64,000 bases of DNA, taken from positions 1 through 64,000 of the IMG/VR virus record IMGVR_UViG_3300009514_000006; one strand, 5' to 3'. The notes beneath the pieces are model-generated. The model searched no databases. It had not been told where the DNA came from and worked only from the letters and a program-made list of their open reading frames with translations. Position 1 is the stretch's first letter, and the number at the start of each line of letters is the position of its first letter. This document shows, piece by piece, positions 42,154-60,717 of this stretch. Source of the stretch: a virus. Position numbers and translations under genes: made by a program.

Positions 42154-43994
42154 TAAATCACCGTTATAAGAGAGTTCCCTGCGGGATCAGCGGGTACTGG
42201 AAGTTCGTCTTCTAGAATAGCCACATCAGAAGCGGGGCTCTGTACCGTCACATTAAGCATCCCCGTAACACCCATTGCTCTTTCTATTATCTCTGCCAGA
42301 ATAACATTCTCACCTATCCCTAAGCTATTTATGTACAACTCAATTGCTTCCTTAACTAAGGGAGCCAAATCTATCTCTTCAAAACCATTCTGAGCGGCTA
42401 TGGATAGACGGACTGACACGCGCCGAATAGAGGGAACAGCCACATTCACAATAACTCCCGCACACGCCACCCCAGGGAGTTCGCTAATGTCAGGGTCTCC
42501 ATTAACTATTCTCTGTACCTCAAACAAAAGACCTGTGTAATAGGAGTAAGAGGCAACAAGAACAGAACCTAAGGGGGCTCCTGATCCCGTTAACTGTATT
42601 TCTCCGGTACCTCTATTTAGGTAATAATCAGTGTTTAGAACCTTTAAAGAAAAACCAGAACCAGAGTTAATCCAAAGGCGTATACTCCCATTAACTATTG
42701 GGAACTTAGCTACTCTAAAGAGCTTTTGGCCTGCCTCTGCGCTAGCAGTAATTAATTCTACTAAGACAAGTTCGTCGCTTAAATCATGCTCTCTAGAGGT
42801 TGGTGTGCTCAACGCAGCAACATTCGGATAAATCGTTCTATTTATAGAGGTGTACTGCAGTAGCTCAATTTGAGAAGAATTCTCTGGACTAACAATAAGG
42901 TAACCCTCATCAGGAAAGTCATCACCATTGTCAATGGACAAAGAAGAGGCAGGGGGGAAGGAAGGAATAGCTACTGCTACATCAGATGATGCTAGAACAA
43001 CTGAGTCAGGAACCAGCCCCGTCCCATCGTCTACGTATAAAATAACCTCGCTATTACTTGGGGGAGTTACTGCTTTGGCCGTAACCACTCTTTGTCCTGT
43101 TACAGGATCAGCTACACCAAGAACTGCCTGTTCCAGAGCAGTTCTTGTTCCAGAACTAAGAGTCTGTACGTGTAACCTAGCTCGGGATCTCAGTTGCGAA
43201 TCCCTCTCGGTATCCCGCCCTCCTCCAAATATCGACGTATTGAACACTAAAGCCCCGGTGAATGGGGGTGCCGAAACGAACTGAGATACTCTTCCTACCC
43301 CTACGTTTCCTCCTGATCCTGGTACTATAGCCTTGGCTGAAATAGTAGTTGATTCATAGTTTCCGTTAACCAAAATACCTGATTCAGTGGTCGTAAATTT
43401 AATAGCAGCCGACGCACCTGCAGAGGGAACTTGAATCAGTAAGCTCGCCGCTATATTAACGTCAGCTGCACCCGAGACCAGGGATACACGGTCCCCCAAT
43501 GAATGATTATTAGATAAACCAGACGGGACGGTAAGAATGCTTCCTGCGACGTTGTTGTCTAGGACCTGAATATCTTCAACCGATGGAGTCCCCTCGCCTA
43601 TTCTGACAGTATAGGGATACCCAGAAGTGGGAAAAGATGAGGAGTCCTCAAGAGATACAGTTATGGATCCAACCAAGGTATCAAAAATTAAAGAATTAGT
43701 AATCAAGTTACCATCAGTAATGACAACCGATCCAACCGATGAAGCAGGTCTGAGTCTTGTTAGCCCAAAGTCAGCCACACGAGCGTCTAGGTCAACCCCA
43801 GAGGCGCTGTTCAGGCTGTAGCCATCGATTAGCTCTGCCATTTGGAAATATTGTTCGTCGTCCTCAATGGCGGCAGCCTCTAAAATTGTGCGAATAACAG
43901 ATCCTACAGTAAAATCTGTTATTGTTGTGTTTAATTTGACATAATTAATCATGTCGGTAAGTATTTGATCAAATGTTCTAGGTATAAAGGCCAT
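42153..43994 (-). CDS. baseplate wedge protein (J/gp6-like)
   Basis: A 613-residue protein. The N-terminal MINYVKLNTTITDFTVGSVIRTILEAAA and the middle NFNTSIFGGGRDTERDSQLRSRARL-type segment (GGGRDTERDSQLRSRARL) are the classic baseplate_J signature. Two FPxxG-type inserts are present (about 107-165 and 350-400). The C-terminal VPSIRRVSVRLSIAAQNGF and IIERAMGVTGMLNV segments fit the family. It forms wedge dimers around the hub. One-base overlap with the next gene. Confidence 0.88.
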   Translation of the reverse strand: MAFIPRTFDQILTDMINYVKLNTTITDFTVGSVIRTILEAAAIEDDEQYFQMAELIDGYSLNSASGVDLDARVADFGLTRLRPASSVGSVVITDGNLITNSLIFDTLVGSITVSLEDSSSFPTSGYPYTVRIGEGTPSVEDIQVLDNNVAGSILTVPSGLSNNHSLGDRVSLVSGAADVNIAASLLIQVPSAGASAAIKFTTTESGILVNGNYESTTISAKAIVPGSGGNVGVGRVSQFVSAPPFTGALVFNTSIFGGGRDTERDSQLRSRARLHVQTLSSGTRTALEQAVLGVADPVTGQRVVTAKAVTPPSNSEVILYVDDGTGLVPDSVVLASSDVAVAIPSFPPASSLSIDNGDDFPDEGYLIVSPENSSQIELLQYTSINRTIYPNVAALSTPTSREHDLSDELVLVELITASAEAGQKLFRVAKFPIVNGSIRLWINSGSGFSLKVLNTDYYLNRGTGEIQLTGSGAPLGSVLVASYSYYTGLLFEVQRIVNGDPDISELPGVACAGVIVNVAVPSIRRVSVRLSIAAQNGFEEIDLAPLVKEAIELYINSLGIGENVILAEIIERAMGVTGMLNVTVQSPASDVAILEDELPVPADPAGNSLITVI

Positions 43995-51879: not shown

Positions 51880-52398
51880 CTATCCTCTATTCCCTAATAT
51901 AAGGTCACGAATATCTCTAGTGGTGCTCTTACTGTTACTAGATAGTCCTTTACCAGAATCAAAATCGAGCAAAATATCTTTGTTACGATTACTGGTCTGT
52001 CCGGCTTCCTTCTCCAAAGAGGCCAATGCTTCGTCGGACATACCCTCGGTCAAATCAGGAGTAATCCCCTGCGCCAATTCCTTCTCCCATTTATCGATCA
52101 ACGGGTCTCCTGTTTCGTCGAAGACAATCTCTCCATCAGCATTCTTCGCCGCCTTCAACAGTGCGTCTGGGTTCTCCTCAAACAGATCCTCATAAAACTC
52201 TGTTAACAACTCTAATTTAGTAGATCCTTGAAAAGCTTTATGCGTCCAAGGAAGCTTGTACTTCTTTACCCACCACCTTCTGAGGAAGGTGATCATTGAG
52301 GGGCTCTTCAGGTTCTTTCGTGCTATTTCCTTGGCTGCCAGCACTAGTGTTTGATTCTTGAGCGGTTCCCCTTCTTCGCTTACGAAAGGAATTCTCAA
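51880..52398 (-). CDS. tail assembly chaperone, second overlapping frame
   Basis: A 172-residue frame from TTG 52398, overlapping the first chaperone gene by 161 bases. GGAGGTGAT lies nine bases before the TTG, an unusually perfect ribosome site, so independent initiation is likely. Sequence features are helical (LVLAAKEIARKNLKS, LRRWWVKKYKLPWTHKAF, ELLTEFYEDLF), as in E'/GT-type chaperones. A frameshift fusion with the first frame is an alternative (+1 or -2 would be needed). Confidence 0.7.
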   Translation of the reverse strand: MRIPFVSEEGEPLKNQTLVLAAKEIARKNLKSPSMITFLRRWWVKKYKLPWTHKAFQGSTKLELLTEFYEDLFEENPDALLKAAKNADGEIVFDETGDPLIDKWEKELAQGITPDLTEGMSDEALASLEKEAGQTSNRNKDILLDFDSGKGLSSNSKSTTRDIRDLILGNRG

Positions 52399-52729
52399 AA
52401 GTCATCACCTCCGAGAAGACCTTCATAACAACACTTCGATCATATAGAGTATCAAAATCCCACCAAGAAGGCTTTTGAATCAAACATACTTCTAACACAG
52501 CTATCATATAATGAAAATAATCAGTTTCAGGATCCATTCCTACACCGGTAAAGTTGCCATCATCATCAGTAACACAATGGTGTCCCCCGTTCAGCTCGTT
52601 CCGACGCCTCTGAACTTTAGAATGATCCATAATTGACAGTTTCCGTGACGTGAACTGTCCCTTGTACACTTCGTCATCTTCTTCAGAAGTGAAATCCAAA
52701 TTAAAAGTATTCAATTTTCCTTTATTCAT
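52238..52729 (-). CDS. tail assembly chaperone, first frame
   Basis: A 163-residue protein with AAAGG eight bases before ATG 52729. The N-terminus has FTSRKLSIMDHSKVQRRRNELNGG; the C-terminal 45 residues are low-complexity (GTAQESNTSAGSQGNSTKEPEEP) and coincide with the overlap. It corresponds by position and size to gpG/gpE-type chaperones that bind the tape measure before tail assembly. Confidence 0.75.
   Translation of the reverse strand: MNKGKLNTFNLDFTSEEDDEVYKGQFTSRKLSIMDHSKVQRRRNELNGGHHCVTDDDGNFTGVGMDPETDYFHYMIAVLEVCLIQKPSWWDFDTLYDRSVVMKVFSEVMTFENSFRKRRRGTAQESNTSAGSQGNSTKEPEEPLNDHLPQKVVGKEVQASLDA
52404..52412 (-). promoter_or_regulatory. strong Shine-Dalgarno inside the first chaperone gene
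   Basis: GGAGGTGAT on the minus strand, complementary to nine bases of the usual 16S tail, with nine bases to TTG 52398. It argues for internal initiation of the second chaperone frame. Confidence 0.65.
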
Positions 52730-53170: not shown

Positions 53171-53186
53171 GTTATTCTCCTTTTAT

Positions 53187-53204
53187 CTAAGCTAAGTTAA
53201 TTAT
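53187..53204. repeat. direct repeat, left copy
   Basis: CTAAGCTAAGTTAATTAT; it matches 53362-53379 at 17 of 18 positions and directly abuts one arm of the long inverted repeat. Confidence 0.75.
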
Positions 53205-53299
53205 GCCTTTACGGCACCTTTCCGACCTTAAACTACTTTTTGTTTTGTGCCCTAGAAGGGGATTCTCGGGCTAAACGCCTGGAAAGGTGCCGTAAAGGC
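53205..53299. repeat. 19-base perfect inverted repeat with 57-base loop
   Basis: Arms 53205-53223 and 53281-53299 are exact reverse complements (19 of 19), one arm beginning GCCTTTACGG. In the minus-strand RNA they form a strong stem. Confidence 0.85.
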
Positions 53300-53361
53300 T
53301 GGACCTAGAGACGTTGAGGAAGGGTGGGTTCACCACGGTGTTTGCGGACGTGGCCGACAAA

Positions 53362-53379
53362 CTAAGCTAAGCTAATTAT
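53362..53379. repeat. direct repeat, right copy
   Basis: CTAAGCTAAGCTAATTAT; partner of 53187-53204. It overlaps the predicted -10 element of the tube promoter. Confidence 0.75.
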
Positions 53380-53403
53380 ATGAAGTTTTTTAGCCTAAAT
53401 CAA
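53375..53403 (-). promoter_or_regulatory. predicted strong promoter for tail tube
   Basis: TTGATT (53403-53398), a 17-base spacer and a consensus TATAAT (53380-53375) lie just after the sheath stop. Transcription would start near 53368, giving a leader of about 200 bases to the tube ATG. Confidence 0.55.
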
Positions 53404-53407
53404 CAAA

Positions 53408-60332: not shown

Positions 60333-60335
60333 AAA

Positions 60336-60521
60336 TTATCTCTCCTTAATTTTAGTGGTTAAGGAGACGTTGCTGCCGGTTATTCGGTTATATTTGGATA
60401 ATTTAGACGAATGACGATCAATGCGACATTCTTTACAGTACCTGTCTAACCCTGACTTCCGGGCTGCGAAGTACTCTGAGGCGGGCTTCTCATGCTCACA
60501 TTTTTGGCACTTAAATAGCAT
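60336..60521 (-). CDS. small zinc-binding protein
   Basis: A 61-residue protein from ATG 60521; TTG 60545 is an alternative start. FKCQKCEHEKPASEYFAARKSGLDRYCKECR gives two CxxC pairs around an SEYF block, a pattern found in small phage proteins and some HNH relatives, though no HNH catalytic His pair is visible. Function unknown. Confidence 0.55.
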   Translation of the reverse strand: MLFKCQKCEHEKPASEYFAARKSGLDRYCKECRIDRHSSKLSKYNRITGSNVSLTTKIKER

Positions 60522-60541
60522 CTCAAATAAATACCCTACAG

Positions 60542-60700
60542 TCAATCAGACTGGTCTTCAGCTAGAAACTGAAATACTGATTTTCTGAACTCATTTAGGG
60601 GAAGATGGTGAACAATAACCATGCCATCTGTAGCCTTAATGCTGATGGACACAGTTTTTGCTTCCTTATTGATATTTATTTTAACAGGTTCTGTAAACAT
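60542..60700 (-). CDS. 52-residue hypothetical protein
   Basis: ATG 60700 to TGA 60542. Mixed strand/helix (VKININ, TVSISIKATDGMVIV, FRKSVFQFLAEDQ). No ribosome site, but a TAGAAT element eight bases upstream suggests a nearly leaderless start. It fills the gap between fibre and zinc genes. Confidence 0.5.
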   Translation of the reverse strand: MFTEPVKININKEAKTVSISIKATDGMVIVHHLPLNEFRKSVFQFLAEDQSD

Positions 60701-60717
60701 GTCAAATTATTCTATAC

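Follow-up and report, generated by a model that had tools for sequence, protein, structure and literature searches.

A promoter and a predicted structured RNA leader between the tail sheath and tail tube genes of a contractile-tailed phage, with a putative translational control element

The 237-nt gap between the tail sheath and tail tube genes of the phage studied here (53407-53171 of the window, by which we mean the whole 64,000-nt stretch that was analysed, positions 1 to 64,000 of IMG/VR record IMGVR_UViG_3300009514_000006) holds a good sigma70-type promoter, of a kind that recurs here in related phages, and, as folding calculations consistently show, an exceptionally structured RNA leader. 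That the two form the promoter and cis-acting leader of a separate tube mRNA, probably under autogenous translational control, is a reading to which we give about an even chance. The tube leaders of many distantly related phages share a covarying 48-nt element, which we infer to be a cis-acting control site; most likely it is a translational operator to which a phage protein binds. The broader idea, that is, that an undescribed RNA family governs tube synthesis across uncultivated contractile-tailed phages through this element, bound by a tail protein and made two-state in the window by a 19-nt antisense arm, is rather doubtful.

Transcription of this region runs on the minus strand, from sheath through gap to tube (Table 1), and the coordinates and features that an earlier note on this DNA had given between the two genes are correct in every measurable detail, all of them lying on that strand. 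The tube assignment relies on a sequence profile of the protein's relatives, which gives a full-length match (E 2.7e-7) to 8q01, a tail tube protein of solved structure; an AlphaFold model of the tube was poor (pLDDT 46) and was discarded. The protein 8q01 is of the phage K gp165 type. After the tube come two overlapping ORFs (51880-52398 and 52238-52729, minus strand), the first of which matches tail assembly chaperones and which are probably a programmed-frameshift pair. Elsewhere in the window, the 385 nt before a 340-aa ORF (60333-60717, minus strand) contain a small cysteine-rich, HNH/zinc-finger-like open frame.

Table 1. Features of the sheath-tube junction, in order of transcription (window coordinates)
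Feature	Position	Strand	Basis or remark
Tail sheath gene (5' neighbour of the gap)	55738-53408	minus	phrog_279, E 1e-39
-35 hexamer TTGATT	53403-53398	minus	promoter scan; type recurs in related phages
-10 hexamer TATAAT, 17-nt spacer	53380-53375	minus	inferred transcript start ~53368
Direct repeat 1, ATAATTAGCTTAGCTTAG on minus strand	53379-53362	minus	overlaps -10 and inferred start
First hairpin of inferred transcript, GUUUG-UCGGCCACGUCCG-CAAAC	53362-53340	minus	in every nascent-length fold
Likely diverged copy of 48-nt element, CAACGUC-UCUAGGUCCA-GCC-UUUAC-GGC-ACCUUUCCA-GGCGUUU	53316-53273	minus	R3 match
First-transcribed (5') arm of 19-bp inverted repeat	53299-53281	minus	within element core
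Small hairpin GCCC-GAGAAUCCCCUUCUA-GGGC	53271-53249	minus	inside loop of long stem
3' arm of 19-bp inverted repeat	53223-53205	minus	exact antisense of element core
Direct repeat 2, ATAATTAACTTAGCTTAG on minus strand	53204-53187	minus	just 5' of ribosome-binding site
Shine-Dalgarno AGGAG of tube gene	53181-53177	minus	
Tail tube gene, 139 aa	53170-52751	minus	phrog_985 and relatives' profile vs PDB 8q01

Around 50 relatives of the tube (43-80% identity) were found in IMG/VR; tblastn against INPHARED detected none, and neither did the search of GTDB genomes. Where the junction can be read, nearly every relative is structured immediately 5' of the tube, in a sequence that differs by group (A, with its subgroup A1, B and C).

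The TTGATT-17-TATAAT site that the earlier note had seen just past the sheath stop (53403-53375, minus strand) agrees with the consensus at 10 of 12 positions and is the sole such site found, with 0.3 expected; it has the top score within 330 nt upstream of the tube, is the strongest site in its own stretch and implies the same start as proposed before. A promoter of this type lies upstream of the tube in L025, L005, L029, L007, L008, L033 and six other loci. Of 14 other phages in groups A and C, 13 have TTGAC(N)-17/18-TANNNT as the best site in the 330 nt ahead of the tube, namely seven of eight in group A (the exception is L004, and L009 has TGGACC) and all six tested in group C; its distance to the start codon used is 146-243 nt. 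Taken singly, many of the scores are modest (monobase-shuffle p up to 0.17), and the weight of the recurring promoter comes from a position and sequence common to the relatives. In group B, the best promoter precedes the hairpin in some phages but follows it in the rest, which is why the word leader is certain only for the window and groups A and C. In L046-L059 and L075, the sheath stop TGA runs straight into TATAAT, TATACT or TAAACT, and could therefore also supply the TG for an extended -10 promoter.

What follows the promoter is predicted to be folded to an unusual degree. For minus-strand RNA of the gap, the folding z lies between -5.8 and -6.8, and no other of the window's larger intergenic gaps folds as strongly; the opposite strand folds ordinarily (z -1.6). 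The perfect 19-base inverted repeat reported earlier, with a 57-nt spacer, is the longest local one in the 64-kb window (the next is 14) and is well beyond chance, the longest in 300 shuffles being 12; the other hairpins reported within the segment are there as well, e.g., the small one inside the loop of the long stem. This stable 19-bp stem sits 25 nt upstream of the Shine-Dalgarno, and the first hairpin of the inferred transcript has, as judged by eye, a similar placement in relatives. No exceptional anti-Shine-Dalgarno stretch was found in the window leader, and a terminator scan of the gap (GC-rich hairpin plus T run) found none.

The gap is also framed by two direct repeats, which are identical at 17 of 18 positions, exactly enclose 157 nt, as previously described, and exceed chance expectation (the best 18-mer pair in 300 shuffles matched at 16/18). 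The earlier note had seen in them a possible target duplication around an inserted element, and the search for further copies that it proposed came back empty: neither the direct nor the inverted repeat recurs in the 125.6-kb record, the inverted-repeat arm has no exact match in the IMG/VR scan, and no phage (INPHARED) or plasmid (PLSDB) record matches the gap credibly (BLAST matches to Streptococcus phages, at E 0.06 over 33 nt, were dismissed as chance). Near-perfect repeats bounding the segment would fit a mobile element that duplicated an 18-bp target on insertion, and, if the repeats were collapsed, promoter, Shine-Dalgarno and start codon would lie compactly together. Such an insertion is nonetheless very improbable, since there is no other copy in these collections, the 157-nt segment does not have terminal inverted repeats at both ends (one arm abuts direct repeat 2 but the other ends 62 nt from direct repeat 1) and relatives fill the same junction with other promoter-plus-hairpin leaders. 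As the merged repeats leave so compact an arrangement, the segment may instead have grown by local duplication. In the minimum-energy fold, direct repeat 2 partly pairs with the 5' strand of the element.

The relatives show how differently this junction can be built. The closest ones, with tubes at 74-80% identity, form group A1 (L025, L005, L029, L007 and L009), and their leaders are alike among themselves (pairwise z 4.9-11.4) and have no similarity to the window leader in pairwise alignment. They contain a CUCCGUC complementary to the GACGGAG ribosome site (ACCUCC and GGAGGU in L029), and, although this stretch is individually significant only in L005 and L009, the complementarity suggests that it may mask the tube ribosome site. 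In group B (L035-L059, L065 and L075), sheath and tube are separated by a hairpin with the invariant loop UYGUCCCCUC, the stems of which vary widely yet covary (72.6% paired vs 55.6% in shuffled alignments; covariation score 0.574 vs 0.271, with slid versions reaching at most 0.335). In the largest two group B records searched, of 169 and 166 kb, this loop is present once each, at the tube junction; several of the hairpins are followed by T runs, and no Rfam match was found in the loci scanned. The group B hairpin occupies the same junction as the window structure, covaries strongly in its stem and has a single copy per genome, but it is unlike the window structure in sequence and fold, and the corresponding model (R1) found nothing in the window. 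Pairing of the loop in trans with the Shine-Dalgarno sites of other genes was considered and rejected, a perfect 8-nt site existing in L021 and L056 only. In group C (L109-L112, L116, L120 and L119), the leader is longer and comprises two or three helices, and its second domain covaries (95.7% paired, with eight cells changed on both sides; slid versions are at most 36% paired).

It is this second domain that led to the 48-nt element. A covariance model of six leaders derived from it (R2) matched additional tube leaders (L073 at E 1.7e-6 and, with weak scores at the expected position, L070 and L071), and an enlarged model of eight (R3), from which the window was left out and to which L060 and L063 were added by eye, is the one used here. 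In the R3 alignment, 86.5% of cells are paired vs 62.7% after shuffling, and the covariation score is 0.729 vs 0.259+-0.051 (reached in 0 of 500 shuffles), slid versions scoring at most 0.14. The element consists of an outer stem, a CUCUGG-type strand, an inner stem closed by a 9-nt loop ending in YAC, a CCUUCAG-type strand and the return of the outer stem, so that conserved unpaired segments (CUCUGG, UCC.AC and CCUUCAG) are held within covarying stems. When R3 was run on 277 kb of loci that had not gone into it, there were seven matches at E up to 10, all of them in tube leaders (L110, L116, L109, L068, L128, L131 and the window); the E-values are rough and come from a shortened calibration. 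Across 14 whole records, every match below E 0.1 is single and at the tube leader, and scanning IMG/VR for a 33-nt pattern of the element brought up six contigs, each of them a tube locus known beforehand. In the records searched, element or hairpin is thus found once per record and only at the tube leader. The group A1 leaders gave no match to R3; L008, which looks element-like by eye, scored 5.5 bits only and is not claimed, and a second CTGTNGTCC copy in the L111 record was dropped, having no element match. Rfam scans of the gap and sixteen related loci brought up no relevant family, only tRNAs and one group I intron, the best score for the window gap being that of a miRNA model, 25 bits where the gathering threshold is 90.

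Whether the window itself carries the element is a finer matter. A weak similarity between its leader and that of L111 (2 of 3000 shuffles, in one of 13 comparisons) prompted the covariance-model test; the resemblance had been noticed by eye before R3 was built, from which the window was excluded and most members of which had been chosen earlier. R2 had missed the window, and R3 matches it at 13.0 bits, with an E of 0.0018 within the gap and 0.48 over 64 kb, where it ranks second to a match of 14.4 bits to a truncated 24-nt hairpin at 43121. Because of this whole-window E, the match is only suggestive. The putative copy lies, as in the R3 family, on the same strand as the tube and 5' of it, and both stems can form, with CUCUAGG and CCUUUCCAG in place of the conserved segments and an apical loop shortened from 9 to 5 nt (UUUAC). 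Strand, place and both stems fit, the shortened loop and one altered segment weigh against, and we therefore regard a diverged copy of the element in the window leader as likely but unproven. The 3' arm of the 19-bp repeat is a trait of the window: an antisense arm of 19 nt arose in 0 of 200 shuffles, and it is absent from the 13 other element-bearing leaders, in which such complementarity extends over 3-6 nt.

The proposal that the tube mRNA has a structured leader, already made in the earlier note, is thus strengthened by the recurrent promoter, the compensatory changes in related leaders and the R3 match. The covariance analysis it called for revealed compensatory changes in the conserved element and in the hairpins of other groups and none for the long stem, which relatives do not have. 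Relatives devoid of compensatory changes would speak against a functional leader, and this is not what was found, since related leaders do show such changes.

On the reading that we favour, the tube would be transcribed separately from its own promoter, through the structured leader, and the element would act after transcription has started, with the tube protein or a tail-assembly partner as the regulator, which would allow the operator to match tube synthesis to assembly. That the element is found once per record, at the tube gene only, makes a gene-specific regulator likelier than a metabolite, and T4 gp32 and gp43, which control their own translation, are phage precedents for such autogenous control (PMC3014915). 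In the window, the 3' repeat arm being the exact antisense of the element core, element and long hairpin are mutually exclusive. Unconstrained folds of the nascent transcript form the element stems first and replace them by the 19-bp stem once the second arm is present, and the antisense arm would, once transcribed, invade the element, so that the leader would have two states, one with the element and one with the 19-bp hairpin. At rest, it would be in the long-hairpin state, in which the Shine-Dalgarno is mostly paired, and, since the long hairpin is predicted to be ~24 kcal/mol more stable than the element state, the latter could persist only if held by ligand, protein or timing. Forcing the element in the window changes the unpaired probability of the Shine-Dalgarno from 0-0.23 to 0.12-0.32 per base, which frees it only slightly, so that the calculation does not fix the output of the switch. 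The excess of tube over sheath that the earlier note had invoked as a purpose is not required, because contractile tails are built with tube and sheath proteins in about equal numbers.

Other readings of the same gap have to be weighed against this one. It might hold a promoter followed by a purely mechanical hairpin, the 19-bp stem of which protects the tube mRNA, makes it more stable or sets the spacing of the ribosome site, with an element match due to chance. This is on the unlikely side, although the stem is stable and close to the Shine-Dalgarno, hairpins of unrelated sequence occupy the junction in group B and in phage K, and the match is unimpressive over the whole window; against it, leader and strand of the match are exactly those expected, its E is low there, and the element core and the repeat arm occupy one stretch. 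A perfect 19-bp duplex is also a plausible substrate for RNase III, and the one seen here, the sole such structure in 64 kb, might be cut in order to separate or mature the sheath and tube mRNAs. We consider such a processing site improbable, as no relative has a comparable perfect duplex and a promoter right upstream makes processing unnecessary for the separation of the mRNAs.

A small-molecule riboswitch, with the 48-nt element as aptamer and the antisense arm as switching strand, would account for conserved unpaired segments inside covarying stems and for an arm exclusive to the window, but an element found only before one structural gene suits a gene-specific protein better than a metabolite, which makes this a distinctly improbable explanation. 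As for an intrinsic terminator of the sheath mRNA, such a signal is annotated at the sheath-tube junction of phage K and T runs follow several group B hairpins, but the window hairpin is followed by no T run, was not picked up by the terminator scan and sits downstream of the tube promoter, and the probability that it serves this purpose is next to negligible.

Phage K (Herelleviridae) can be compared with regard to a separate tube mRNA. It has the same gene order, a homologous tube protein and a hairpin annotated as a terminator between sheath and tube, so that separating the two mRNAs here would not be unusual, but its gap is 72 nt with a short terminator-type hairpin and no 200-nt leader, and its tube is ~19% identical to that of the window. 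Ribosomal-protein leader operators and translational riboswitches share with the arrangement proposed for the window a conserved element between promoter and Shine-Dalgarno that is excluded by an alternative structure, but the tube-leader element has no Rfam match and is found only before tail tube genes. Replication proteins and the coat proteins of RNA phages are the best documented cases of phage proteins exerting feedback through structured mRNA leaders, and an element present solely before a tail tube gene would be a candidate example of such feedback in tail morphogenesis. There is also a likeness with the gene 32 pseudoknot leader and the gene 43 hairpin of T4, structured 5' leaders, presumably read by a phage protein that limits its own synthesis (PMC3014915), which differ in their genes and structures, the window gene being a late structural one and its regulator putative. 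Relative to Rfam 15 and the papers searched, among them two structured-RNA surveys in which no tail-tube leader RNA was found, the element is new.

The appeal of the system is threefold: (i) a conserved tube-leader element would offer a way of studying how phages keep tube and sheath in balance, (ii) a defined, covarying RNA of 48 nt can be synthesised and tested directly without the host and (iii) the window would be a natural antisense-arm variant, showing how such a leader can gain a switch.

The surroundings of the tube in the relatives are eventful in other ways. A group I intron (RF00028, 58.9 bits; L073:3673-3972, also in L074) splits the tail tube gene in the VSGEE-(I/D)YEP region, and HNH-type endonuclease ORFs lie beside the tube in L007 (4559-5290 and 6445-7134, on both sides) and L004 (5165-5884), so that the sheath-tube region looks like a homing hotspot. 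Between sheath and tube, within the tail gene cluster, L025, L005 and L009 have small J-domain-like ORFs (DnaJ motif), and in L101 (3599-4149) four tRNA genes are lodged just downstream of the tube, inside the tail module.
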